From Spirochaetota bacterium (GTDB lineage Bacteria; Spirochaetota; UBA4802; UBA5550), in the NCBI GenBank assembly GCA_003246895.1, contig QKCL01000048.1, positions 1 to 64,000 on the forward strand: a stretch of 64,000 nucleotides of DNA, in the 5' to 3' direction. Numbering within the stretch: position 1 is the first letter of the stretch; each line of letters begins with the position of its first letter. The position numbers and the translations under genes were made by a program. The notes below the pieces were generated by a model. The model saw nothing but the letters and a program-made list of their open reading frames with translations. It did not search any database and was not told the origin of the DNA. Below, one piece after another: positions 15,602 through 28,170 of the stretch.

Positions 15602-18600
15602 TCAGTCTTTCAGTGCCTTCCCGTCAAGGACATGCCGCACAGCCTTTGCCAGGTCGTTCCTGCCTAGGGGCTTATGGAGGAATGCCCTGATACCTGCCTC
15701 TTCGGCCGTTTTTCTGTCCACCCTTGCGCTGTAGCCGGTGCAGAGAATTACCGGAATTTCCGGCCTTATTTTAAGGACCTCTCCTGCCAGCTCTATCCCA
15801 GTCAGTTCAGGCATGGTCTGGTCAGTAATTACCAGATCAAATAAATCAGGGTCATCCATGAAGAGGTTTAGTGCTTCCGGGCTTTTGTTCATTGTCTTTA
15901 CTCTGTATCCGTAGGCGGTGAGGATTTCATATACTACATCTGTAACCAGAGTTTCATCATCAATATACATGATGTGTTCATTTCCCCCCCGGGCCGTATC
16001 GTTTTTCTCAGCCGCTGCCGCCACTTCCATGTTAATTTTCGGGAAGAACAGCCTGAAGGTTGTCCCTTTTCCGGGGGCGGTCTCAACCTGTATGTTCCCG
16101 TTGTGTGTCTGCATTACTCCGTACATCACGGCAAGGCCCAGGCCTGTGCCTTCCCCCATCTTTTTTGTTGTGAAGTAGGGCTCGAAAATTTTATGGAGAA
16201 TTTCATGAGAAATGCCGGTTCCGTTATCTGAAACTTCCACTATGGAATATTCCCCCTCGGGGATTTGGCCATGGATGCCGTTTTCCGGAACATCAAGGTA
16301 TTTCTCATAAAGCACAATGTCAAGATCTCCATTCTCTTCCATTGCATGAACTGCGTTGGTTGCGAGGTTTATTATGATTTCATATATCTTTGTGGAATCT
16401 GCTGAAACAGGTTTTGTCTCCTCCTGTATTTTGCAGTGAATCATGACAGAAGAAGGGACAGTTGCCTTCAGGAGAGATACTGCCTCGTGCAGTACAGGGC
16501 TGAGAAATATTGCCGATCTGTCTTCTCCCCCCTTTCTGCTGAATGCAAGTATCTGCCTCACAAGGTCCTTTGCCCTTTCTCCGGCCTTGAGAATTCTGTC
16601 AAAATAACCGGCAAATCTGCTGTCCCGGTCAATCTGGGTCAGGGCTATATCGGCGTACCCTATTATGCCTCCAAGGACATTGTTGAAATCATGGGCGATG
16701 CCTCCTGCCAGGTGTCCGATGGCCTCCATCTTTTCAGACTGGCGAAGTCTTGCTTCCATCTCTTTTTTCTCTGTGATATCCTGTGCAATGGCCGCAATAC
16801 CCGCTGTTCCGCCATATTCATTGGTCAGCCGTGAAAGGGTGAGCAGTACCGGAATATGTGTTCCGTCCTTTTTCTGTCTGACTCCCTCTACACCGCGGAT
16901 ATGTTCTCCGGAGATGCACCGGGCCAGCAGCAGGTCAGCCTGTTCATGGTTTTCAATGGGTGTCAGCATTTTTACGGGATGCCCCACAAGTTCTTCACGG
17001 GACCATCCATAGGAGGATGCGGCCTCATCGTTCACGTCAAGGATAATGCCCCTTGGGTCCGCAATAATGGTCGGCAGGGTGCTGTCTGTAAAGACCGTTG
17101 ACAGGCGACGGAGTTCCTGTTCCGCAGTTTTCCGGGGGGTGATATCCTGTATCTGTGAGATAAAGTATAATGGTTCTTTGTTTGCTGCCCGTACTATTGA
17201 AACATCCTGCTGGGCCCAGACTGTATGGCCGTCCCTGTGAATGTATTTTTTTTCCATCCTGTAGTTGTCAGCTTCTCCGCGGATAAGTTTATTCAGATGT
17301 CTAAGATCTGTTTCCAGATCATCGGCATGTGTTATTTCCTGGAATGACATTCCCAGAAGTTCATCTTCAGGATATCCCAGTATTGTGCAGATGGATTTAT
17401 TTATTCTTGTCCATTTGCCTTCCAGTGAAAGCAGAGCCATGCCTATGCCGGCATAGTGAAATGCATTACGGAACCGCTGTTCGCTCTCCTGCAGGGCCCG
17501 TTCGTGCATCAGAATTTCATTCTGGCTTTCATAGAACTGTTCATTTGTGGCCGCAAGTTCTTCATTGGTCGCCTCAAGTTCCTCATTGGCGGCCATTAGT
17601 TCCTCGTTGGCACTTATGAGTTTCCCCTGAATCTCCTTCTCAATTGTAATGTCCTTCCCCGAAGCCCAGATGTTTACCAGTTTTCCATCCTCGACAACAC
17701 CGTATATATCTACCAGCAGGTAGAGCCAGCGTCCGTCGGGCATGATTACTGTAACTTCCTGCTTGTGTGATGTGTAGTTGTTTCTGATAAAGCCGTCCAG
17801 GACATCGTCCATTGTCCTTTCTTCGACCAGGTCTGTATACTTTCTTCCGACTGTGTCCTCTTTGCTGTTCTGCCTGAAAATATCCTGCCAGCTTCTTCTG
17901 TTGCAGTCGATTACCGTGGAATTATAAATCATTTCAGCCTGTTCTCCCACGGGCAGTGCTGCATAGAGATTCTCAGGGGCTCTTAAATAGATGATAAAAT
18001 CCCGTGATACTTCAATAAAATCTGAATAGTGAGTCTGGATGGTCTGCAGTTCCTTTTCAATGCGTATGCGGTCGGTAATGTCAGTGCTCATGCCTGCAAG
18101 AAGGACCCTTTTCCTGGCAGTGTCCCTCCGCATCATTCCCTTTGCGTTTACAGTTCGCCACATTCCGTCATTTTCTTTTATGTTTAATCTGTAGGAGATG
18201 TCGTATTTTGATCCGGATTCAATTGAGCTGCGGATTTCATTCTTTACAGCCTCCCTGTCTTCGGGGTGTATGCGCTGTTCCCATTCATCGGGGATGCCTT
18301 TGAAGGAGCCGGGTTCAAATCCGAATATCTGCTGCATGCGTCCATCCCAGATCATTCTGTCCATGTTCAGGTCCCATATCCATGAACCTGCAGTTGCTGC
18401 ATCAAGTGACAACTGAAGCCGCAGTTCATTTTCATGTAACTGTTCTTCGACCACCTTTCTCTCTGATATGTCTCTCACAAAGGAAAGAATGAATGATTCA
18501 CCGGCAAATGAATAGGAACAGAAATGGGCCTCAATTGGGAAAGTTGTGCCGTCCTTTCTTTTGTGGACGCTCTCGAGGGTTGCCGACTTTTCGCCGGTCA

Positions 18601-18667
18601 GTAGTTTGCAGATTTTTTTAACTTCATCGGGATTAATATGCATGTAATTGATATCCATGATAGTCAT
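15602..18667 (-). CDS. PAS-rich hybrid sensor histidine kinase
   Basis: A 1021-residue soluble sensor from the first ATG. Order: incomplete PAS 1 (1-80), PAS 2 (about 85-210), PAS 3 (about 215-345), a signalling helix with repeated NEEL heptads (about 347-385), PAS 4 (about 395-515), PAS 5 (about 520-640), HisKA with the phosphorylated His in GGIAHDFNN, ATPase domain with NLATNAVHAM, DNGTGIS and GTGLGLAV, and a C-terminal receiver with Asp in VITDQTMPELTG. There is no membrane segment. The first PAS clearly begins before this ATG (PDAIFLHDHEGKIHYANEKA, same frame, 18668-18838), yet no ATG, GTG or TTG exists there, so the true start is unclear. It lies head to head with the sigma-54 activator. 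Confidence 0.9.
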   Translation of the reverse strand: MTIMDINYMHINPDEVKKICKLLTGEKSATLESVHKRKDGTTFPIEAHFCSYSFAGESFILSFVRDISERKVVEEQLHENELRLQLSLDAATAGSWIWDLNMDRMIWDGRMQQIFGFEPGSFKGIPDEWEQRIHPEDREAVKNEIRSSIESGSKYDISYRLNIKENDGMWRTVNAKGMMRRDTARKRVLLAGMSTDITDRIRIEKELQTIQTHYSDFIEVSRDFIIYLRAPENLYAALPVGEQAEMIYNSTVIDCNRRSWQDIFRQNSKEDTVGRKYTDLVEERTMDDVLDGFIRNNYTSHKQEVTVIMPDGRWLYLLVDIYGVVEDGKLVNIWASGKDITIEKEIQGKLISANEELMAANEELEATNEELAATNEQFYESQNEILMHERALQESEQRFRNAFHYAGIGMALLSLEGKWTRINKSICTILGYPEDELLGMSFQEITHADDLETDLRHLNKLIRGEADNYRMEKKYIHRDGHTVWAQQDVSIVRAANKEPLYFISQIQDITPRKTAEQELRRLSTVFTDSTLPTIIADPRGIILDVNDEAASSYGWSREELVGHPVKMLTPIENHEQADLLLARCISGEHIRGVEGVRQKKDGTHIPVLLTLSRLTNEYGGTAGIAAIAQDITEKKEMEARLRQSEKMEAIGHLAGGIAHDFNNVLGGIIGYADIALTQIDRDSRFAGYFDRILKAGERAKDLVRQILAFSRKGGEDRSAIFLSPVLHEAVSLLKATVPSSVMIHCKIQEETKPVSADSTKIYEIIINLATNAVHAMEENGDLDIVLYEKYLDVPENGIHGQIPEGEYSIVEVSDNGTGISHEILHKIFEPYFTTKKMGEGTGLGLAVMYGVMQTHNGNIQVETAPGKGTTFRLFFPKINMEVAAAAEKNDTARGGNEHIMYIDDETLVTDVVYEILTAYGYRVKTMNKSPEALNLFMDDPDLFDLVITDQTMPELTGIELAGEVLKIRPEIPVILCTGYSARVDRKTAEEAGIRAFLHKPLGRNDLAKAVRHVLDGKALKD

Positions 18668-19330: not shown

Positions 19331-20641
19331 ATGGTAAAAAACAGTAATGGAAAAGCCCTTGTAATTGCATGCGGAGCCGGGGATGAGCTTCTGTCCGGGC
19401 TTGCTGAAATCGCATCGGTAATATCACTGGGGGAAGGGGATGCCCCGGAGCAGGGAGTCTTTCCTGCTGCGGTCATTGCCGGAGCTGAGTCTGTGCCCCG
19501 GTCTCTGGCTCTGAGGGATGAGATGTTCCCCGGGGTTCCGGTAATTTTTGCAGGTTCCCTCGATGCTGCGCCTGAAGGTATAGACGATATCATTTCTCCT
19601 CCATATAACGCCTCGGCAATGAAGGTTTTTGCCCAGAGGCTTCACTATCTCAGTCTGGTGTCCAGAGAGATAGGTTCTCTCCGGAGCAGATTGCGGCACA
19701 GGGAGATATTCAGTTCCATTGTAGGTGAGAGCCGTCCCATGATGGACCTGTTTTCATCTGTGGACAGGGTTATAGATTTTGATGTCAATGTTCTCATAAC
19801 GGGTGAGAGTGGAACGGGAAAGGAACTCATAGCCCGGGCCATTCATGACGGAAGCGGCAGAAGGGGAGGGCCGTTTGTTGAAGTGAACTGTGCAGGCCTT
19901 GCCCCTGACATCGCGGACAGTCTTCTCTTCGGCCATGTGAAGGGAGCCTTTACAGGTGCAAACACCGATCACCAGGGGTTCTTTGAACAGGCCCATGGCG
20001 GCACAATATTTCTCGATGAAATAGGGGAGCTCCACAGCGAAGTGCAGTCAAAGCTTCTGCGGGTTCTTGAAAACCGAAAGGTCAGAAGGGTGGGGGGCAA
20101 TGCGGAGAAGGAGATCAGCTTCCGTGTCATATCCGCCACAAACAGGCTTCTCTTCGACGAGGCGAGCGACAGCCGTTTCAGGAGCGACCTCTACTACAGG
20201 CTTGAACAGTTCAAGCTCCATGTTCCTCCCCTGAGAGATAGAAAGGAAGATATACCTCTCCTTGCAAGGCATTTCCTGCGGGAGATCTGCTCATTTTATG
20301 ATCTGGGGGAGATGTCATTTTCGGAACAGGTAATGGACGACCTTGTGTCACGGCGCTGGCCAGGTAATGTCAGGGAACTGCGTCACCTTGTGCAGCGTCT
20401 TGCCATGCAGAGTCTTGACGATATCATAAAGGATATTGAGCCCCACAATTTTGGAAAAGAGCAGAAGTCGACATGCCCCTCTGAAGAGACAGATGAAATA
20501 ATTCCACTTGAAGAGCTGGAGCGGAGGGAGATTTCAAAGGCCTATAAAAAATTCAGCGGTGAGATAGAACGGGCTGCCGTTTCACTGGGCATAAGCCGGG
20601 CAACTCTCTACAGAAAACTGAAAATATACGGTATCATGTAG
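19331..20641 (+). CDS. Sigma-54-dependent transcriptional activator (NtrC type)
   Basis: A 436-residue enhancer-binding protein. Residues 1-105 resemble a receiver fold but lack the acidic pocket: the segment where the phosphorylated Asp should be reads AAVIAGAESV. The AAA+ domain (about 130-360) has Walker A GESGTGKE (158-165), the sigma-54 contact loop GAFTGA (205-210) and Walker B GTIFLDE (224-230). A Fis-type helix-turn-helix ends the protein (RAAVSLGISRATLYRKLK). It would remodel sigma-54 polymerase at distant promoters. The degenerate receiver suggests control other than simple phosphorylation. A sigma-54 promoter with tandem palindromes directly follows the gene. Confidence 0.93.
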   Translation: MVKNSNGKALVIACGAGDELLSGLAEIASVISLGEGDAPEQGVFPAAVIAGAESVPRSLALRDEMFPGVPVIFAGSLDAAPEGIDDIISPPYNASAMKVFAQRLHYLSLVSREIGSLRSRLRHREIFSSIVGESRPMMDLFSSVDRVIDFDVNVLITGESGTGKELIARAIHDGSGRRGGPFVEVNCAGLAPDIADSLLFGHVKGAFTGANTDHQGFFEQAHGGTIFLDEIGELHSEVQSKLLRVLENRKVRRVGGNAEKEISFRVISATNRLLFDEASDSRFRSDLYYRLEQFKLHVPPLRDRKEDIPLLARHFLREICSFYDLGEMSFSEQVMDDLVSRRWPGNVRELRHLVQRLAMQSLDDIIKDIEPHNFGKEQKSTCPSEETDEIIPLEELERREISKAYKKFSGEIERAAVSLGISRATLYRKLKIYGIM

Positions 20642-20649
20642 CAGCTTTC

Positions 20650-20698
20650 CTGTCTCAAATTGAGAATTATTCCTGAAATGAGTCTCATTCTGAGACAG
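20650..20698. promoter_or_regulatory. Two tandem palindromes, likely activator-binding sites
   Basis: TCTCAAATTGAGA (20653-20665) and GTCTCATTCTGAGAC (20682-20696) are two copies of a TCTCA-N3-TGAGA palindrome about 30 bases apart, near three helical turns. They lie some 230-275 bases before the sigma-54 promoter at 20928, the usual distance for enhancer sites. The first begins 12 bases after the activator gene ends. Confidence 0.6.
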
Positions 20699-20927
20699 AG
20701 GGTCATTTCCCGGGCTCATGCCCGGTGCTCTCCAGCCTTTTAAGAAGTTCATGAATGCCTCTGCATGTTTCATTATTCCTTTTTTATGTACAGTGCCATG
20801 CCTAATGTGAAGAATCTCCGCAGATATCTCCTGCCAATTGCTTTATTACCACTGTCATGAGCCTTCGAATCATAAATTCTTTGTCAGTTTCATTGAATAC
20901 GCAGTTTTATAACCCGTTTTATGATAC

Positions 20928-20943
20928 TGGCATGGAAGGTGCA
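20928..20943 (+). promoter_or_regulatory. Sigma-54 (-24/-12) promoter of the lipoprotein gene
   Basis: TGGCATGGAAGGTGCA matches the consensus TGGCACG-N4-TTGCA with GG and GC exactly ten bases apart. Transcription would begin near 20954, about 27 bases before the ATG at 20981, leaving room for the AAGGAGG ribosome site. Confidence 0.7.
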
Positions 20944-20980
20944 ATATGAAGAGGTAACTGAAAGTGACAAGGAGGCAACC

Positions 20981-22078
20981 ATGAAAACCATAATAACAAT
21001 GACAATAGTAGCGATGTTAACATTCTCCTGCGGCGGCGGCTCAGGAAGCGGGACAACTGAAACTGTAGTGCCCGCAGGTGTTACAGAAAACACCCTGAAC
21101 ACTGAATCAGAAGTGATTCTTTCATCTGTCGGTGATGTTTTGAGAGAAGGCGAGGCCCTGTTCTCAACATCTCTTCCTGTGGATTTTGAACTCACAGTTC
21201 TTGATTCATCCGGAAACCCCTTAAGCCTTGCAGTCATTACTCTGAAAGATGAAAACGGCAATGTGCTTACATCAGCCGCAACAGATGAAAACGGTTATGT
21301 CCGGTTTACCTTTCTTGTTGCAAGTGATGCATCAGCGGCGGTACTGTCCATAATCCGTGAAGGTTATGAAACCCTTGAAATCAGCATTGCAGACATTACT
21401 TTGCTTGAGTCTGTCATCAGGACTGTGTCCCTTGATAAGTCTGAAAATGCAGTTGCTGTTACAGACAGTGACGGTGACGGTGTTCCGGATGAACTCGACG
21501 CGTTCCCTTATGACAGTGAGCTTGCATTTACATCCCAGAATAAGATCATGATAGCATTTGACGGTGAGTACCCGGCGAAGGGTGACGGTGACTTTAATGA
21601 CTATGTGGCAAAACTCCAGATTACAGAAAACATAAACAGCAGAAACGAAGTTGTGGCAGTTGCCGTCCATATCGTGCCGGCTAAAACAGAAGCAGGACAC
21701 ATAATGGGAATAAATATAAACGGTAAACGTTATATTCTCAGCAAAGACCCGTTGATTGCTTCTGATAAACCCTTCATGCTGAATGTAACTCTTTCTGAAC
21801 CTGTACCAAGGAACAAAATGCAGATGATGCCCTACGACCCGTTCCTTATCCCTGCAAATGATGCATCAAGGGGCGAGATTCACCTTCCATGGGTTGAAAC
21901 AGTCTACGAGGGAGCAAGATCAGATGGAAACGGCAGGCCATGGGTAATAGTAGTTACAGACGGCTGGAAGTGGCCTGATGAAGGTGTTTCAATAGAATCT
22001 GTTTATCCTGACTTTGATGACTGGTACCTTTCCGGCGGGACAGAGTTCTCAGACTGGTACCTTAACCCTGCCATATAG
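20981..22078 (+). CDS. LruC-domain lipoprotein
   Basis: A 365-residue lipoprotein. The signal peptide ends in lipobox LTFSC (Cys17), followed by a flexible GGGSGSG linker. Residues about 50-130 form an Ig-like or carboxypeptidase-regulatory-like domain (FELTVLDSSGNPLSLAVI). A calcium-type loop DSDGDGVPDELDAFP follows, then the LruC domain with GDGDFNDYVAKLQ and VVAVAVHIVPAKTEAGH. LruC proteins are outer-membrane or surface lipoproteins in Leptospira and Bacteroidetes. AAGGAGG seven bases before the ATG at 20981 fixes the start; a longer frame from 20921 would spoil the signal peptide. Expression probably depends on sigma-54 and the adjacent activator. Confidence 0.88.
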   Translation: MKTIITMTIVAMLTFSCGGGSGSGTTETVVPAGVTENTLNTESEVILSSVGDVLREGEALFSTSLPVDFELTVLDSSGNPLSLAVITLKDENGNVLTSAATDENGYVRFTFLVASDASAAVLSIIREGYETLEISIADITLLESVIRTVSLDKSENAVAVTDSDGDGVPDELDAFPYDSELAFTSQNKIMIAFDGEYPAKGDGDFNDYVAKLQITENINSRNEVVAVAVHIVPAKTEAGHIMGININGKRYILSKDPLIASDKPFMLNVTLSEPVPRNKMQMMPYDPFLIPANDASRGEIHLPWVETVYEGARSDGNGRPWVIVVTDGWKWPDEGVSIESVYPDFDDWYLSGGTEFSDWYLNPAI

Positions 22079-22088
22079 ACCGGCCTTT

Positions 22089-22122
22089 CTGCCCCCTGCT
22101 GTTCAGAGACAGCAGGGGGCAG
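22089..22122 (+). terminator. Terminator hairpin after the LruC gene
   Basis: A 13-bp perfect stem, CTGCCCCCTGCTG (22089-22101) with 22110-22122, and an 8-base loop, starting ten bases after the stop codon. The T run is weak (TTCCTT). Confidence 0.75.
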
Positions 22123-22316: not shown

Positions 22317-22898
22317 ATGGCAATGGATTACTGGATACTTCTCTCCGAGCGGTCAGATGAATACGAACTTACCATTGATGGTCTGCCTGAATGCATGGAA
22401 GAGTATGATCTGAAATTTTCACGTGGACGGAAAATAGAATCGCTGCCCTGCGATACAATCGTTCTCCCATATACTCAGGCTGAAGATGAATTTAAATCGG
22501 ATAATATTGTATGTGCTCCGTCCCTTGGCCTTGTGATAAACAGGAGGCTGAGATTATTATTCGAATCTCTCGGCCTTGATAATATTCAGTATTTCCCTCT
22601 TGTCCTTCAAAGGGATAATCCTCCCTTTGAAGAGCATGATTACTGCATTGCAAATATAACCGGCGTTCACGGATGTGTGGATTTTGAAAACTCCAGTCTC
22701 ACTCTGTTCAATGACGGGACTATTATGTTTATAGATTCACTGCATCTGAAATTTAATGAGGACACTGACTATGGAGACATCTTCAGGCTCTCGGAATACA
22801 CACAGCTAATTGTTATCAGTTCAAGAGTCAGGGAGGCGCTTGAGAAGGAGAAAATAACCGGGCTGAAAATTTATGCCCCTGAAGATCTCATACTGTGA
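22317..22898 (+). CDS. Imm11-like (DUF1629) protein, copy 1
   Basis: A 193-residue soluble protein, first of eight related genes. It shows the pattern I associate with the Imm11/DUF1629 immunity family: a start MDYWILL, a central GLDNIQYFPLVL, then NITGVHGCVDFENSSL, a beta-rich segment with a conserved D, and a C-terminal strand ending in KITGLKIYAPED. Proteins of this family are predicted to neutralise polymorphic toxins, often in clusters. TTGACA at 22197-22202 may belong to the island promoter. ATG at 22317 or 22323 are both possible. Confidence 0.65.
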   Translation: MAMDYWILLSERSDEYELTIDGLPECMEEYDLKFSRGRKIESLPCDTIVLPYTQAEDEFKSDNIVCAPSLGLVINRRLRLLFESLGLDNIQYFPLVLQRDNPPFEEHDYCIANITGVHGCVDFENSSLTLFNDGTIMFIDSLHLKFNEDTDYGDIFRLSEYTQLIVISSRVREALEKEKITGLKIYAPEDLIL

Positions 22899-22949
22899 CA
22901 CGTTCCTGGGAGATTCATTGCCTTGATGATGAAGTTTCGTGAGGATACA

Positions 22950-23498
22950 ATGTATTTTATTTTCACCCATGACAAAGACTATGAGTTCAGTATTACAACG
23001 CCCCAGATTGCCTTTGAGGGGTTTTCATTTATGGACGGTATAAGGCTCCCGGACAGTCTCAGCGAAGAGCCTTTTCAGTATGCAACCGGAGCAAAATCCG
23101 GGGATTCGCTACCTGATTTTCGGGATTCTAATATCCCACTTGTCTCGGATAAACTTCTCTCCCTTTTCAGGGGAGCAGGTGTCGATAGTATTCAGACATA
23201 CAGGGCTGAAGTCGCGAGCCGTTTTGACGGGACGGTATGGAAGAATTATTCAGCCCTGAATATAACAGAAATGATCTCATGTGCAGATCTTTCCCGATCA
23301 GTGTACAGGGAACTTTTTCCTGGTTACTATGAGTTTGATAGTCTTTCCATTGATGTGTCAAAAACAGGTGGCTCCCTCATGTTCAGGCTGGAAGAGTCAC
23401 CGGGAGTAATCCTTATACATAAAAGTGTGGGTAAATATATCGGAGAAAATGACCCGGCAAAGACACTGAGGGGAATCAGACCTGTAAGGGTTCTTTGA
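22950..23498 (+). CDS. Imm11-like (DUF1629) protein, copy 2
   Basis: A 182-residue member. The ATG at 22950 is preferred over one at 22923 because GAGGAT lies just upstream and the other copies also start MYF or similar. Family blocks: GVDSIQTYRAEV, NITEMISCADLSRSVY, and LMFRLEESPGVILIHKSVG, the last nearly the same as in copies 4 and 6. The gap to the next copy is only 36 bases, so copies 1-3 probably form one transcript. Confidence 0.68.
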   Translation: MYFIFTHDKDYEFSITTPQIAFEGFSFMDGIRLPDSLSEEPFQYATGAKSGDSLPDFRDSNIPLVSDKLLSLFRGAGVDSIQTYRAEVASRFDGTVWKNYSALNITEMISCADLSRSVYRELFPGYYEFDSLSIDVSKTGGSLMFRLEESPGVILIHKSVGKYIGENDPAKTLRGIRPVRVL

Positions 23499-23534
23499 TG
23501 CTGCAGTAAGTTTATTAAACGTGAGGTAACTGAT

Positions 23535-24083
23535 ATGTACCATGTGCTGGAAGGCATACCATTTGATATACCGGGAGGTGTACATTTTGAAGGAAGTTCG
23601 GGCTACAGCGGTGTTTTTTTTGAAGGCTCCCCTGTTAATTCCTGTGAAATCTTTGTCAAACTTGAGAGTGGAAAGATTGATCTGCCGGACTATTTTGAAT
23701 TGTTCTGCACGCCAGTTGTGAGTGCAGATTTCGTTGAGCTGCTTTCGGCCATCTGCCATGGAAGCTTCCAGTCAATCCCTGCCGAGGTGAGGTTTGAAAA
23801 TTTAAGGGTTCAGGGGTATCATGTCCTTAATGTTCTGAGAAAAGTTGAGGTACTGAATATGGAGAATACCAGAGGGAACGTATTTAAAAATAAGATAGTA
23901 CGCATGAAGCAGATGAAGATCTCTGAACAGGTGCTGCAGATGAACTTTCCAATGTTCCGTGTCTCGGAGTTTCCAACTGTAATTATAATCAATGAAGAAG
24001 TTGTGAAGCGGATTGAAAGCAGCGGATTCACCGGATGCGTTATGATGGCTGCAGATGGATGGGGAGATTCACACAGATTCTGA
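23535..24083 (+). CDS. Imm11-like (DUF1629) protein, copy 3 (divergent)
   Basis: A 182-residue member and the most divergent copy. The N-terminal half lacks the usual charged loop, while the later part keeps the layout: YHVLNVLRKVEVLNMENTRG in place of the NIIG-ECAD block and FRVSEFPTVIIINEEVVKRI in place of FRLKE. GAGGTAACTGAT before the ATG gives a ribosome site. The change of the otherwise constant C-x-D motif suggests another target or loss of function. Confidence 0.5.
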   Translation: MYHVLEGIPFDIPGGVHFEGSSGYSGVFFEGSPVNSCEIFVKLESGKIDLPDYFELFCTPVVSADFVELLSAICHGSFQSIPAEVRFENLRVQGYHVLNVLRKVEVLNMENTRGNVFKNKIVRMKQMKISEQVLQMNFPMFRVSEFPTVIIINEEVVKRIESSGFTGCVMMAADGWGDSHRF

Positions 24084-24304
24084 TGTTTACCTGCGTGTTT
24101 ACGGCTGAAGATCCGACACCGCCCGTCAGTAATGGATAAGGGAATGTCAATATTAAATGAACCTCCATTGGGTGTGAAACAGTTATTGCTGTTTCAGGTG
24201 GAAAGCCGGTTCAGATCCAAGGGGGCAGGTAAACTATGGGGAATTCACCGAGAGGCGTAGCAGGAAAGTTATGTTGAATTTTTAGCGGGGTAACCAGGGA
24301 GCAT

Positions 24305-25507
24305 ATGGCCAGAATACTAATTGTAGATGATTCAAAACTCATGAGGAAAAGACTTGCCGACATTCTTGAAACTGCAGGTCACACCATTGTCAGGGAATGT
24401 GAGAGAGGAGATCAGGTGCTGGATGCCTACGCGACATTTCAGCCGGACCTGGTCACAATGGATATAAACATGCCCGGTATGAGCGGGATCAACGTGCTGC
24501 GGGAACTGAAACACCATTACCCGAAGTCGGATGTAATTCTTATAAGTTCGGAGAACCATGAGCTTGTCATTCTGGAGGGTATCAGGTCAGGAGCGTCTAA
24601 TTATATTATAAAACCCTTTCAGGAGGAAAATGTGAACCGGATCGTTTCTCAGGTCATTTCAAAATCTCCGCAGAATAAAGCAAATGAAAAGAATGGTTTC
24701 TCCTCCCGGATTAAGGAAATTGATGAGAATATAACCGGCCTTATACTTCTCATTGATGATTCCAAACTGATGCTCAGGGCCACTTCGGACATGTTGAAGT
24801 CTGACGGGCACAACATGCTCACAGCACCAACGGGGAAGCTCGGCATTGACCTGGCCCTGAACGGAACTCCGGATCTCATTCTCCTTGATGTTTTAATGCC
24901 TGACATGGATGGTTATGAGGTTTTCAACAGGCTCAGGCAGAACGAAATTACAAAAAATATCCCCATAATAATATACTCTTCAATGACCCGGAAAGAGGAT
25001 ATTGTAGCAGCCATGAAAATGGGTATTAACGAATATATATCCAAAAACTGCGATGAAACCATCTTCAGAAGAAAAATAAAATCAGCCCTGCACCAGGCAC
25101 AGCTTGAGAGGCAGAGGCTTGAGGAAAAGTCGATTCAGGGTATTGTTATAACACAGATAGACAATTCCACATACATCTCCTTCAGATACAGCCTTAAATC
25201 TGAAAATTCAATGGAGGAGAGAAGAAAAATATTCAATCCTGCACTCTTAAAATCAGTTGAAGATAAGAATCTGATCTTTGATTTCAGGCAGATTACAGAC
25301 ATGGACAGTGAAGAGATCAAACATCTGAAATCACTCTATTCCCTCTTTCCGGACAAGAAGCTTCTCGTAGTCTGCGGCAGGCACTACGGATCGTTTGCAG
25401 CTGAATTTGATATGGAGGGAAAAAACGAGTATTTTATTTCAGCAGGAGATCTTGATGTTTACCTTGAACAGAACAAACACAGAAGGTTTATGGAAATTGT
25501 TAAATAA
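24305..25507 (+). CDS. Double-receiver response regulator with STAS-like C-terminus
   Basis: A 400-residue cytoplasmic regulator. Receiver 1 (about 1-120) has the acidic pair DD8-9, phosphorylated Asp53 (TMDINMPGMSG) and Lys103 (IIKPF). Receiver 2 (about 145-265) has Asp195 (LLDVLMPDMDG) and a matching Lys (EYISKNCDE). A linker helix leads to a C-terminal domain (about 285-395) whose ITQIDNSTYISFRYSL and KNLIFDFRQITDMDSEEIK resemble STAS anti-sigma-antagonist folds. It lacks a DNA-binding domain, so output would be by protein contact. It splits the Imm11 island, only 17 bases before copy 4, and may be cotranscribed with it. Confidence 0.88.
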   Translation: MARILIVDDSKLMRKRLADILETAGHTIVRECERGDQVLDAYATFQPDLVTMDINMPGMSGINVLRELKHHYPKSDVILISSENHELVILEGIRSGASNYIIKPFQEENVNRIVSQVISKSPQNKANEKNGFSSRIKEIDENITGLILLIDDSKLMLRATSDMLKSDGHNMLTAPTGKLGIDLALNGTPDLILLDVLMPDMDGYEVFNRLRQNEITKNIPIIIYSSMTRKEDIVAAMKMGINEYISKNCDETIFRRKIKSALHQAQLERQRLEEKSIQGIVITQIDNSTYISFRYSLKSENSMEERRKIFNPALLKSVEDKNLIFDFRQITDMDSEEIKHLKSLYSLFPDKKLLVVCGRHYGSFAAEFDMEGKNEYFISAGDLDVYLEQNKHRRFMEIVK

Positions 25508-25524
25508 ATGCGCCCGGTCATATT

Positions 25525-26085
25525 ATGTACTTTAAACTTATAAACGATATTGGATATGACTCCCCCTTTGTGATAAATGATCCGGAAAACCTTCCGGTTG
25601 AATTTCATCTGCTGTCCGGTAGAGAAATGAAGGTGCCTGTGAACCTTCCTCTCGTATACACAACTGATGCGAAAAAGGGTGATGAACTTCGGTCATTTCT
25701 TGATTCAAGTTTTACTCTGATGTCGGCGGATTTTCTTGATCTGTTTAAAAAAGCCGGGGTAGCAAATCTTCAGACATTTCCGGCAGTCATAAAAAGCACG
25801 GAAGACGGATATGTATGGGATAATTATTTTGGGGTTAACATTATAGGAATGATTGAATGTGCAGATCTGGAGAAATCAAAATATACGGAGATAATGCCGG
25901 GACATTATAGATTCAAAGAGCTTGCCATTAATTCTGCCAGAATACCTGACGGATTATTGATGTTCCGTTTGAAGGAACATCTTCCGACAATTGTTATTCA
26001 CCGCAGTGTGGGTCGTTTGATCAAGGACACTGATCCCGAAAGAAAAACATTTAGGGGATGGACTGTCGGAAAAATTATTCAGTAA
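25525..26085 (+). CDS. Imm11-like (DUF1629) protein, copy 4
   Basis: A 186-residue member of the closely related trio (copies 4, 5, 6). Blocks: FVINDPENLPVEFHLLSG, GVANLQTFPAVI, NIIGMIECADLEKS and MFRLKEHLPTIVIHRSVG. It starts 17 bases after the receiver gene, with only a weak ribosome site, so translation may be coupled. It shares a long run of nearly identical DNA with copy 5, from about 25780 onwards. Confidence 0.72.
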   Translation: MYFKLINDIGYDSPFVINDPENLPVEFHLLSGREMKVPVNLPLVYTTDAKKGDELRSFLDSSFTLMSADFLDLFKKAGVANLQTFPAVIKSTEDGYVWDNYFGVNIIGMIECADLEKSKYTEIMPGHYRFKELAINSARIPDGLLMFRLKEHLPTIVIHRSVGRLIKDTDPERKTFRGWTVGKIIQ

Positions 26086-26140
26086 ACTTTAGAAGGCATG
26101 CGTTGTCCAATGTATTAATCTGAATTTAGCGGGAGAATAT

Positions 26141-26698
26141 ATGTATTTAAAACTGATAAATGATATCGAATATGAATCGCCCTTTGTGATAAATGAACCG
26201 GACAATCTTCCCGTGGAATTTGATCTTATGTCAGGAAAGGAAATGAATGTTCCGGTATCTCTGCCTCTGGTATATACCACCAATGCGAAAAAGGGTGAGG
26301 GTTTGCGTGCCTTTTTAAAAGGGTCCAATACTCTGGTGTCCGCAGAGTTTCTTGATCTGTTTAAAAAAGCCGGAGCGACAAATTTACAGACATTTCCGGC
26401 AGTCATAAAAAGCACGGAAGACGGGTATGTGTGGGATAATTATTTCGGGCTTAACATTCTCGGAGTGATTGAATGTGCAGATCTGGAGAAATCAAAATAT
26501 ACGGAGATAATGCCGGGACATTATAGATTCAAAGAACTTGCAATTGATGTGACCAGAATACCGGAAAATCTGTTAATGTTCCGTCTTAAAGAACATGCTC
26601 CCACTATAATAATACACTATGACGTCGGGCAGTATCTATACGAGAATGATCCGGAAAATGAATTTACGGGATGGTCTGTGGATGATATTGTTCAGTAG
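26141..26698 (+). CDS. Imm11-like (DUF1629) protein, copy 5
   Basis: A 185-residue member, very similar to copies 4 and 6. The first half nearly equals copy 6 (FVINEPDNLPVEFDLMSG, YTTNAKKG), while the middle (KYTEIMPGHYRFKELAI) equals copy 4, so the gene reads as a mosaic of the two. The C-terminal 30 residues differ (IIHYDVGQYLYENDPENE). GGGAG lies seven bases before the ATG. Confidence 0.72.
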   Translation: MYLKLINDIEYESPFVINEPDNLPVEFDLMSGKEMNVPVSLPLVYTTNAKKGEGLRAFLKGSNTLVSAEFLDLFKKAGATNLQTFPAVIKSTEDGYVWDNYFGLNILGVIECADLEKSKYTEIMPGHYRFKELAIDVTRIPENLLMFRLKEHAPTIIIHYDVGQYLYENDPENEFTGWSVDDIVQ

Positions 26699-26797
26699 TT
26701 TCACGGGAAGTTCCGGATGTGTTTCGAGTTTCAGGTGTCAAATTAAAATCTGAAAGGATTTTGACGGACAAAATTTTCGCGGGAAGGCAGGGTGGAT

Positions 26798-27496
26798 ATG
26801 TACAAATGGACTCAGCTGAGAGATTTTCAGATGAATCCCGTTGATAACGGTGCCGGCTATGGATCAGGATTTGAAGTGAAGATGCAGGAGATAGGAGAAA
26901 TAGATGACAAAGGGCATGATGATCCGCGTCTTCTTTCTTTGTGGGAGGTTGAGACTCCGTTGGGGGAAAACACTCATATGAAGAGTGACATTACCCGTTA
27001 TCTGCACTGGCTTCTTATGTTCAGAACATTTCAGCGAGGGGCAAACCGGGCAATTGAGAAAGGTCTTTTTAACGGTGAATATAAAACTGACGACCCATGG
27101 TATTTTATTGTTGGTGAACATGACCAGATGCAGGCTCTTGTTGCAGAGTATTCACCTTCATCAGGACTTAAAAAGCCCGCTAGATTTTCCGTCAGTAAAA
27201 CGAAAAGTTCCTATGATAATATTGAAAGTCTTGTCGTAAATTCCCAGATTGAAAAACCATGTGAAGTATACTTGAAATGGGTTAAAGAACAGGATGAATT
27301 TGCGGAATATATCGATATTGTCGAAAAGATTCAATTTGATGAACTTGAGCGGAGAGTGGGAAGTGCTCTTTTTGAACAGGCGGAGTGGGCGGCTGTTAAC
27401 AGGATTACTGTCGGAGGAGTTTGTTGTGAATGGATGAATACGGATGAGTCCAGAATGTGCATGGGGTATTCGTTCAGTTATACGAAAAAGTTATAA
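26798..27496 (+). CDS. Orphan hypothetical protein inside the Imm11 island
   Basis: A 232-residue soluble protein with no signal peptide. It is acidic and contains aromatic-rich segments (TRYLHWLLMFRTFQRGAN, DPWYFIVGEHDQMQAL) and a cysteine pair near the end (GVCCEWMN). It does not show the Imm11 blocks. ATG at 26798 with GGGTGG upstream is favoured over a GTG two codons earlier. It could be another immunity type or a toxin-related protein; nothing in the sequence decides this. Confidence 0.6.
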   Translation: MYKWTQLRDFQMNPVDNGAGYGSGFEVKMQEIGEIDDKGHDDPRLLSLWEVETPLGENTHMKSDITRYLHWLLMFRTFQRGANRAIEKGLFNGEYKTDDPWYFIVGEHDQMQALVAEYSPSSGLKKPARFSVSKTKSSYDNIESLVVNSQIEKPCEVYLKWVKEQDEFAEYIDIVEKIQFDELERRVGSALFEQAEWAAVNRITVGGVCCEWMNTDESRMCMGYSFSYTKKL

Positions 27497-27609
27497 TCTC
27501 TGCTGCGGCATGATCAATGGTTAAGAACCTGACCCGTATTGGATATGGATTTTGTTGAAGTATAGATTATATCATCAATGTGTTATTCTTGTTTTGAGGT
27601 TTAAGAAGC

Positions 27610-28170
27610 ATGTATTTTACTCTGATAAATGATTTAAAGTATGCGTCTCCCTTTGTGATAAATGAACCGGACAATCTTCCCGTGGAATTTGACCTTATGT
27701 CGGGAGTGGAAATGAATGTGCCGGTATCTCTGCCTCTGGTATACACCACCAATGCGAAAAAGGGTGACGCTTTGCGTGCCTTTTTAAAAGGTTCCAATAC
27801 TCTGGTGTCCGCAGAATTTCTTGATCTGCTTAAAAAAGCCGGAGTGACAAATTTACAGACATTTCCGGCAGTCATAAAAAGCACGGAAGACGGGTATGTA
27901 TGGGATAATTATTTCGGGCTTAACATTCTCGGAGTGATTGAATGTGCAGATCTGGGGAAATCAACTTACGATGAAATAATGCCGGGTCATTATTCTTTCG
28001 ACGAGCTTGTCATTGATACTGTCAAAATACCTGACGGATTATTGATGTTCCGTTTAAAGGAGCATGTCCCGACAATTATTATTCACCGCAGTGTGGGTCG
28101 TTTGATCAAAGATTATGATCCTGAAAAGAAATCTCTGTCAGGCTGGAGTGTCGGGAAAATCATTCAGTAA
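27610..28170 (+). CDS. Imm11-like (DUF1629) protein, copy 6
   Basis: A 186-residue member. The first 120 residues match copy 5 almost exactly (including AFLKGSNTLVSAEFLDLLKK), and the last 50 match copy 4 (MFRLKEHVPTIIIHRSVGR), while SFDELVIDTVKIPDG is its own. The same frame stays open for 42 codons past the stop codon (28171-28296), though those codons do not resemble the family. Confidence 0.72.
   Translation: MYFTLINDLKYASPFVINEPDNLPVEFDLMSGVEMNVPVSLPLVYTTNAKKGDALRAFLKGSNTLVSAEFLDLLKKAGVTNLQTFPAVIKSTEDGYVWDNYFGLNILGVIECADLGKSTYDEIMPGHYSFDELVIDTVKIPDGLLMFRLKEHVPTIIIHRSVGRLIKDYDPEKKSLSGWSVGKIIQ

Follow-up and report, generated by a model that had tools for sequence, protein, structure and literature searches.

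A predicted sigma-54 switch joining an enhancer-binding protein gene, tandem palindromes and an lruC-like lipoprotein gene in Spirochaetota

In the window, by which we mean the whole 64-kb stretch of Spirochaetota DNA that was analysed, profile and motif evidence identified a sigma-54 activator (bacterial enhancer-binding protein) of 436 aa encoded on the forward strand at 19331-20641, with its stop codon at 20639-20641. The protein comprises a degenerate receiver domain (approximately residues 1-125), an AAA+ domain (130-296), an AAA lid and a Fis-type HTH (393-432) containing the segment SRATLYRKLK. The AAA+ domain is that of an enhancer-binding protein, matching PF00158 (Sigma54_activat) with an E-value of 9.5e-64 and retaining intact GESGTGKE (Walker A), GAFTGA (205-210) and FLDEIG (Walker B) motifs, and the C-terminal HTH is matched by PF02954 over residues 393-432 (E 7.9e-10). 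The receiver domain has no Pfam match; AVIAGAES and ISPPYN stand at the places expected for the phospho-acceptor Asp and TKP, and the protein does not classify as an NtrC-type response regulator. In an NCBIfam search, the activator fell below the cut-off of every equivalog model displayed. A first look at the window genome found nine candidate related AAA+ activators.

Beginning 12 nt past the activator stop codon are two predicted enhancer sites, 30 bp apart from start to start: site 1, TCTCAAATTGAGA (20653-20665, extended TGTCTCA-N3-TGAGA), and site 2, TCTCATTCTGAGA (20683-20695, extended GTCTCA-N3-TGAGACA). The first-pass annotation had reported two TCTCA-N3-TGAGA palindromes about 30 bases apart directly after the activator gene, and our pattern search recovered both at the same positions as the sole exact matches in the window. 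When the 340-bp region was dinucleotide-shuffled 5000 times, a 5-N3-5 inverted repeat present in two copies appeared in 3 of the shuffled sequences. A single palindrome is not rare, with nine exact matches genome-wide vs three for the control. Five of the seven copies away from the locus are inside long ORFs, the other two are near gene ends or outside ORFs, and no -24/-12 element was found within 1.5 kb of any of them. Downstream of the palindromes, folding gave a hairpin, CCGGGC-UCAU-GCCCGG, with no T-run (20710-20725, forward strand), which was not predicted as a terminator in a terminator scan; it is possibly a weak end of the activator transcript.

The centre of site 2 is 253 bp from the -12 element of a predicted sigma-54 promoter, TGGCATGGAAGGTGCA (20928-20943, forward strand; -24 TGG, -12 TGC), from which transcription would be expected to start near 20954. 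This GG-N10-GC sequence ranks first among the -24/-12 matches in the window (one mismatch), and its last base is 38 bases ahead of the ATG at 20981, exactly where the first-pass annotation had placed a -24/-12 element with correct GG/GC spacing. A GGCAYR-N5-TGCW site was present in 12 of 5000 dinucleotide shuffles of the 340-bp region. Genome-wide, the -24/-12 class numbers 23, vs 4 for the reversed control, and appears to be mostly real because it is enriched and has matches before nifH-like, ammonium-transporter-like and uptake-system genes (names judged from a look at the N-termini). The genome contains one rpoN gene (E 5e-57), the absence of which had been named as evidence against the circuit. 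The locus therefore has the GG-N10-GC spacing, the TGGCAY/TGCW elements and the rpoN gene expected for a sigma-54 promoter, and no sigma-70-like site was found on the forward strand between the activator gene and lruC. Sigma-54 enhancers are commonly approximately 80-180 bp from their promoters; the 250-280 bp seen here is longer and still workable by looping.

The promoter precedes an lruC-like lipoprotein gene of 365 aa (20981-22078, forward strand), recognised by domain and lipobox evidence. Its start was assigned to 20981 because the lipobox and an AGGAGG ribosome binding site (20970-20975, forward strand) fix it there; the mechanical ORF start at 20921 was rejected, as it is upstream of the promoter and the gene would include the promoter. 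The protein has the lipobox LTFSC (Cys17), a carboxypeptidase-regulatory-like Ig domain, a Ca-type DSDGDGVPDELDAFP motif and an LruC/DUF4842 domain that exceeds both curated cut-offs, scoring 101.4 bits against TIGR04456 (cut-off 36), which places it among the LruC-domain proteins. A single-sequence structure model was poor (mean pLDDT 36). The gene is followed by a strong 15-bp hairpin with no clear T-run (22089-22122, forward strand; fold -38.2 kcal/mol, z -6.8), and the transcription unit is therefore probably monocistronic. LruC proteins have, to our knowledge, been described chiefly as antigens, and there is little information on the timing of their production. The lruC orthologues at loci L014 and L015 lack the last approximately 70 residues of the LruC domain of the window protein, with the same ORF end in both.

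We searched 46 genomes of the order, partly draft assemblies, for the composite motif TCTCA-N3-TGAGA, 203-233 bp, GGCAY-N6-TGCW. It occurs once each in the window genome (G000), G014 and G016, and not at all in the control, and all three copies sit between the activator orthologue and lruC. G014 and G016 are 73-75% identical to the window genome in the activator and 45-49% in LruC. The tandem sites are 30, 29 and 29 bp apart in G000, G014 and G016, respectively, the first G014 site having one mismatch. Repeated upstream sites are thus conserved together with the promoter, as expected of an enhancer-dependent promoter. The upstream neighbour of the activator gene differs, being a kinase gene in the window and katG in G014 and G016. 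With the N-terminal part of the activator as query against 393 genomes of the phylum, only G014, G016 and a marginal match in G038 were found.

More distant relatives carry the same parts in other arrangements. In G004, the activator gene (53% identity) is convergent with lruC, and a palindrome and TGGCACGATACATGCT lie in front of lruC. A second tandem pair in that genome, 29 bp apart, is 113-142 bp from the -12 element of TGGCACGGAATCTGCA, before the gene of another exported protein. The G004 palindrome before lruC (L089, ~11036) lies within a long inverted repeat that is almost perfect and in which the half-site recurs every 12 bp. In G001, the activator orthologue (48%) is unlinked, and the one GTCTCA-N3-TGAGA that the genome contains stands before lruC together with AGGCATATATTATGCA. 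Behind the G001 activator orthologue (L090) are a near-palindrome and TGGCATATAAAATGCG, which would yield a non-coding transcript of approximately 110 nt ending in a GC-rich, terminator-like hairpin, a candidate LuxO-Qrr-like small RNA judging from its layout. G010 has the activator orthologue, a palindrome, TGGCATGATGCTTGCT and then a gene encoding an exported protein of 573 aa other than LruC. Between the G010 sigma-54 promoter and the exported-protein gene (L101, 2577-2989) is a structured leader of approximately 150 nt (164-nt fold, -53 kcal/mol); neither this leader, nor that of the window, nor the short transcript of G001 matched any Rfam family.

In G026, which belongs to another family, an lruC paralogue is preceded by four near-palindromes, at intervals of 28, 30 and 28 bp, and by the strong -24/-12 element TGGCACACTTATTGCT. 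Three of the four sites have one mismatch and the remaining site has two; none of 20,000 mononucleotide shuffles produced at least three sites carrying no more than one mismatch. The first lruC gene of G026 has a -24/-12 element but no palindromes. Every intergenic GTCTCA-N3-TGAGA in G001, G004, G014 and G016 has a rightly oriented -24/-12 element. Because the genes are rearranged in G004 and G001, a position after the activator gene can be told apart from one before lruC, and these two genomes are the best evidence for the predicted switch.

Among lruC genomes with an activator orthologue, palindromes and a -24/-12 element are found at an lruC gene in all six that could be assessed (G000, G014, G016, G001, G004 and G026); G038 was left out of this count, as the contig for its matching lruC paralogue ends too early. 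Neither palindromes nor -24/-12 elements were found in any of the eight lruC genomes that have enough upstream sequence and no activator orthologue (G002, G009, G012, G015, G017, G018, G019 and G020). If shared ancestry is ignored, random assignment would give a split of 6/6 vs 0/8 with a probability of 1 in 3003. All six genomes that have exact palindromes (G000, G014, G016, G001, G004 and G010) share the HTH segment SRATLYRKLK unchanged. The segment reads SRASIYRKLK in G026 and G038, and the G026 sites are slightly different too.

From the parts, their conservation and the co-occurrence of activator and sites, we infer a compact sigma-54 switch, to which we give a probability of roughly 0.9. 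Dimers of the adjacent activator would bind the two GTCTCA-N3-TGAGAC-like palindromes through the Fis-type HTH. DNA looping would then carry the AAA+ hexamer to the closed RNA polymerase-sigma54 complex at 20928-20943, approximately 250-280 bp downstream, where ATP hydrolysis would open the promoter, and lruC (20981-22078) would be transcribed as a single-gene unit. The first-pass annotation had proposed both that the palindromes are the likely DNA site of the activator and that an LruC-type lipoprotein is under sigma-54 control. The first proposal is strengthened by a layout kept in three genomes and an association that survives gene rearrangement, and the second draws support from the comparative evidence tying activator, palindromes, -24/-12 element and lruC together. 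Its description of the circuit as self-contained holds for the cis-elements plus the activator but does not extend to the input signal.

Of the alternatives, the one that survives best accepts the promoter and palindromes as real and assigns the sites to a paralogous enhancer-binding protein with an intact receiver, the adjacent activator acting elsewhere. A paralogue could use the sites because several enhancer-binding proteins, the adjacent activator among them, are encoded in the genome, Fis-type HTHs are alike, and the adjacent activator is without a phospho-acceptor. We nevertheless consider this improbable, since across genomes the presence of palindromes follows the orthologue of the adjacent activator, even in G001, where the genes are unlinked; the HTH segment does not vary among genomes with exact palindromes; and palindromes are directly behind the orthologue gene in G001 and G010. 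There is a smaller chance still that the palindromes function at the RNA level, forming hairpins or a weak terminator of the activator mRNA, rather than as DNA operators. When 20640-20760 is folded, the two copies pair with each other (-38.4 kcal/mol, z -2.8), although tandem palindromes do so by construction, and a long inverted repeat surrounds the G004 site. However, no T-run follows the palindromes, the G004 and G001 sites are upstream of lruC and away from the activator end, near-palindromes hold a 28-30 bp spacing in G026 and in C12 of G004, and the intergenic copies of the four genomes named above all have a rightly directed -24/-12 element. Chance resemblance between unrelated palindromes and -24/-12 elements has a negligible probability: a genome of this size will contain single palindromes by chance, as the genome-wide count indicates, but the shuffle results, together with conservation in seven genomes from two families, refute this explanation as far as sequence can.

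The receiver domains of the orthologues bear on how the proposed switch may be controlled. The phospho-acceptor and lysine motif are missing in the orthologues of the window genome, G014, G016 and G004, the G001 orthologue has Glu at the phospho-acceptor position, and the G010 orthologue retains Asp and Lys (LDID, TKP). This suggests that phosphorylation control was lost in the lruC-linked activator lineage. Because the receiver phosphorylation site has been lost, activity is probably set by the activator level or by a non-phosphorylation signal. The divergent kinase gene (15602-18667) was considered as a partner of the activator and rejected, given katG in its place in G014 and G016 and a divergent kinase in G010 without a BLASTP match. 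This PAS-kinase-receiver gene is on the reverse strand, and its PAS-like coding runs on upstream to approximately 18840 in the same frame with no standard start codon before an in-frame stop, which may reflect a frameshift or misassembly.

The circuit of the window genome seems to have a single target, lruC, because none of the 20 other strong sigma-54 promoters has an exact palindrome in the 400 bp upstream of it; two of these promoters have poor palindrome matches at approximately 300-340 bp. The expectation of the first-pass annotation that a genome scan would find TCTCA-N3-TGAGA pairs near other sigma-54 promoters was thus not borne out. More tentatively, and with the odds somewhat against it, there may be a possibly phosphorylation-independent sigma-54 regulon that extends across the order and is devoted in each genome to one or two exported proteins, with an enhancer-promoter cassette directly behind the activator gene that moves together with it. 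The target of the cassette would have changed from lruC to a different exported protein in G010, a second exported protein in G004 and a Qrr-like small RNA in G001.

Circuits of this kind, with an enhancer-binding protein, tandem sites, sigma-54 and an exported protein, are already known, and we class the present one with them because of parallels to SypG/LuxO, PrsR and EbpA; the activator itself is below the equivalog cut-offs. In Vibrio, the SypG UAS TTCTCANNNTGMDWN and the LuxO UAS TTGCAWWWTGCAA are 5-N3-5 half-palindromes present in more than one copy (PMC10162802). The SypG UAS, whose left half TCTCA-N3-TG (in TTCTCA-N3-TG) is the same as in the sites described here, is the closest published site (PMC10162802); our literature search for the TCTCA motif paired with enhancer-binding proteins itself returned nothing. 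The activator-adjacent promoter of G001 likewise would give a short non-coding transcript, as in LuxO-qrr. Unlike the activator here, which has a degenerate receiver and lruC as its predicted target, SypG and LuxO are response regulators that are phosphorylated and that control polysaccharide genes and Qrr RNAs (PMC10162802). The present activator scores 258.2 bits against the LuxO model (NF041946), below the cut-off of 800.

The nearest parallel to the whole circuit is the PrsK/PrsR system of PEP-CTERM genes, which has the same layout: exported proteins are encoded in single-gene operons, and the long region upstream carries an activator motif, in some cases repeated, followed by a -24/-12 element (Haft 2006, PMC1569441; PMC9850573). 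The PrsR motif is phylogenetically matched to one activator (Haft 2006, PMC1569441). The PrsR enhancer is approximately 63 bp from the promoter motif (PMC1569441), vs approximately 230 bp here; the window lipoprotein has no PEP-CTERM tail and belongs to a different target family, and the activator scores 287.1 bits against PrsR (TIGR02915), below the cut-off of 502.6. In Leptospira interrogans, EbpA-RpoN drives two putative lipoprotein genes and amtB (LIC_12503, LIC_11935 and amtB are named in a review, PMC12655853), so that sigma-54 and an enhancer-binding protein drive lipoprotein genes as proposed here. EbpA has GAF domains, unlike the receiver-derived domain of the present activator, and its lipoprotein targets were not identified as LruC in the literature searched (PMC12655853). 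The window protein shares the LruC domain, above cut-off, and a lipobox with the Leptospira LruC lipoprotein (TIGR04456, PF16130); no report of sigma-54 control of an LruC protein was found in the literature searched. With activator, site and promoter all nameable, the regulation of LruC, and its role via the inducing condition, become directly testable. The comparison also provides a candidate motif, approximately GTMTCA-N3-TGAKAC, by which a family of receiver-degenerate activators may recognise DNA, as well as an apparent case of enhancer cassettes re-targeted between relatives.

Two further features were observed. Many LruC proteins of the order (L019, g3-genus loci) end in a hydrophobic segment and then a basic tail, e.g., GALVLLNRRRARAQI, and the unrelated G010 target (L104, 7800-9521) has the same ending, which resembles a sorting/anchor signal; the window lipoprotein is without such a tail. 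In the window, 22317-28170 (forward strand) holds tandem small genes matching the Imm11/Imm43 immunity-protein families, several of them similar copies with no obvious toxin among them, and a double-receiver protein (24305-25507) is interspersed in this run.
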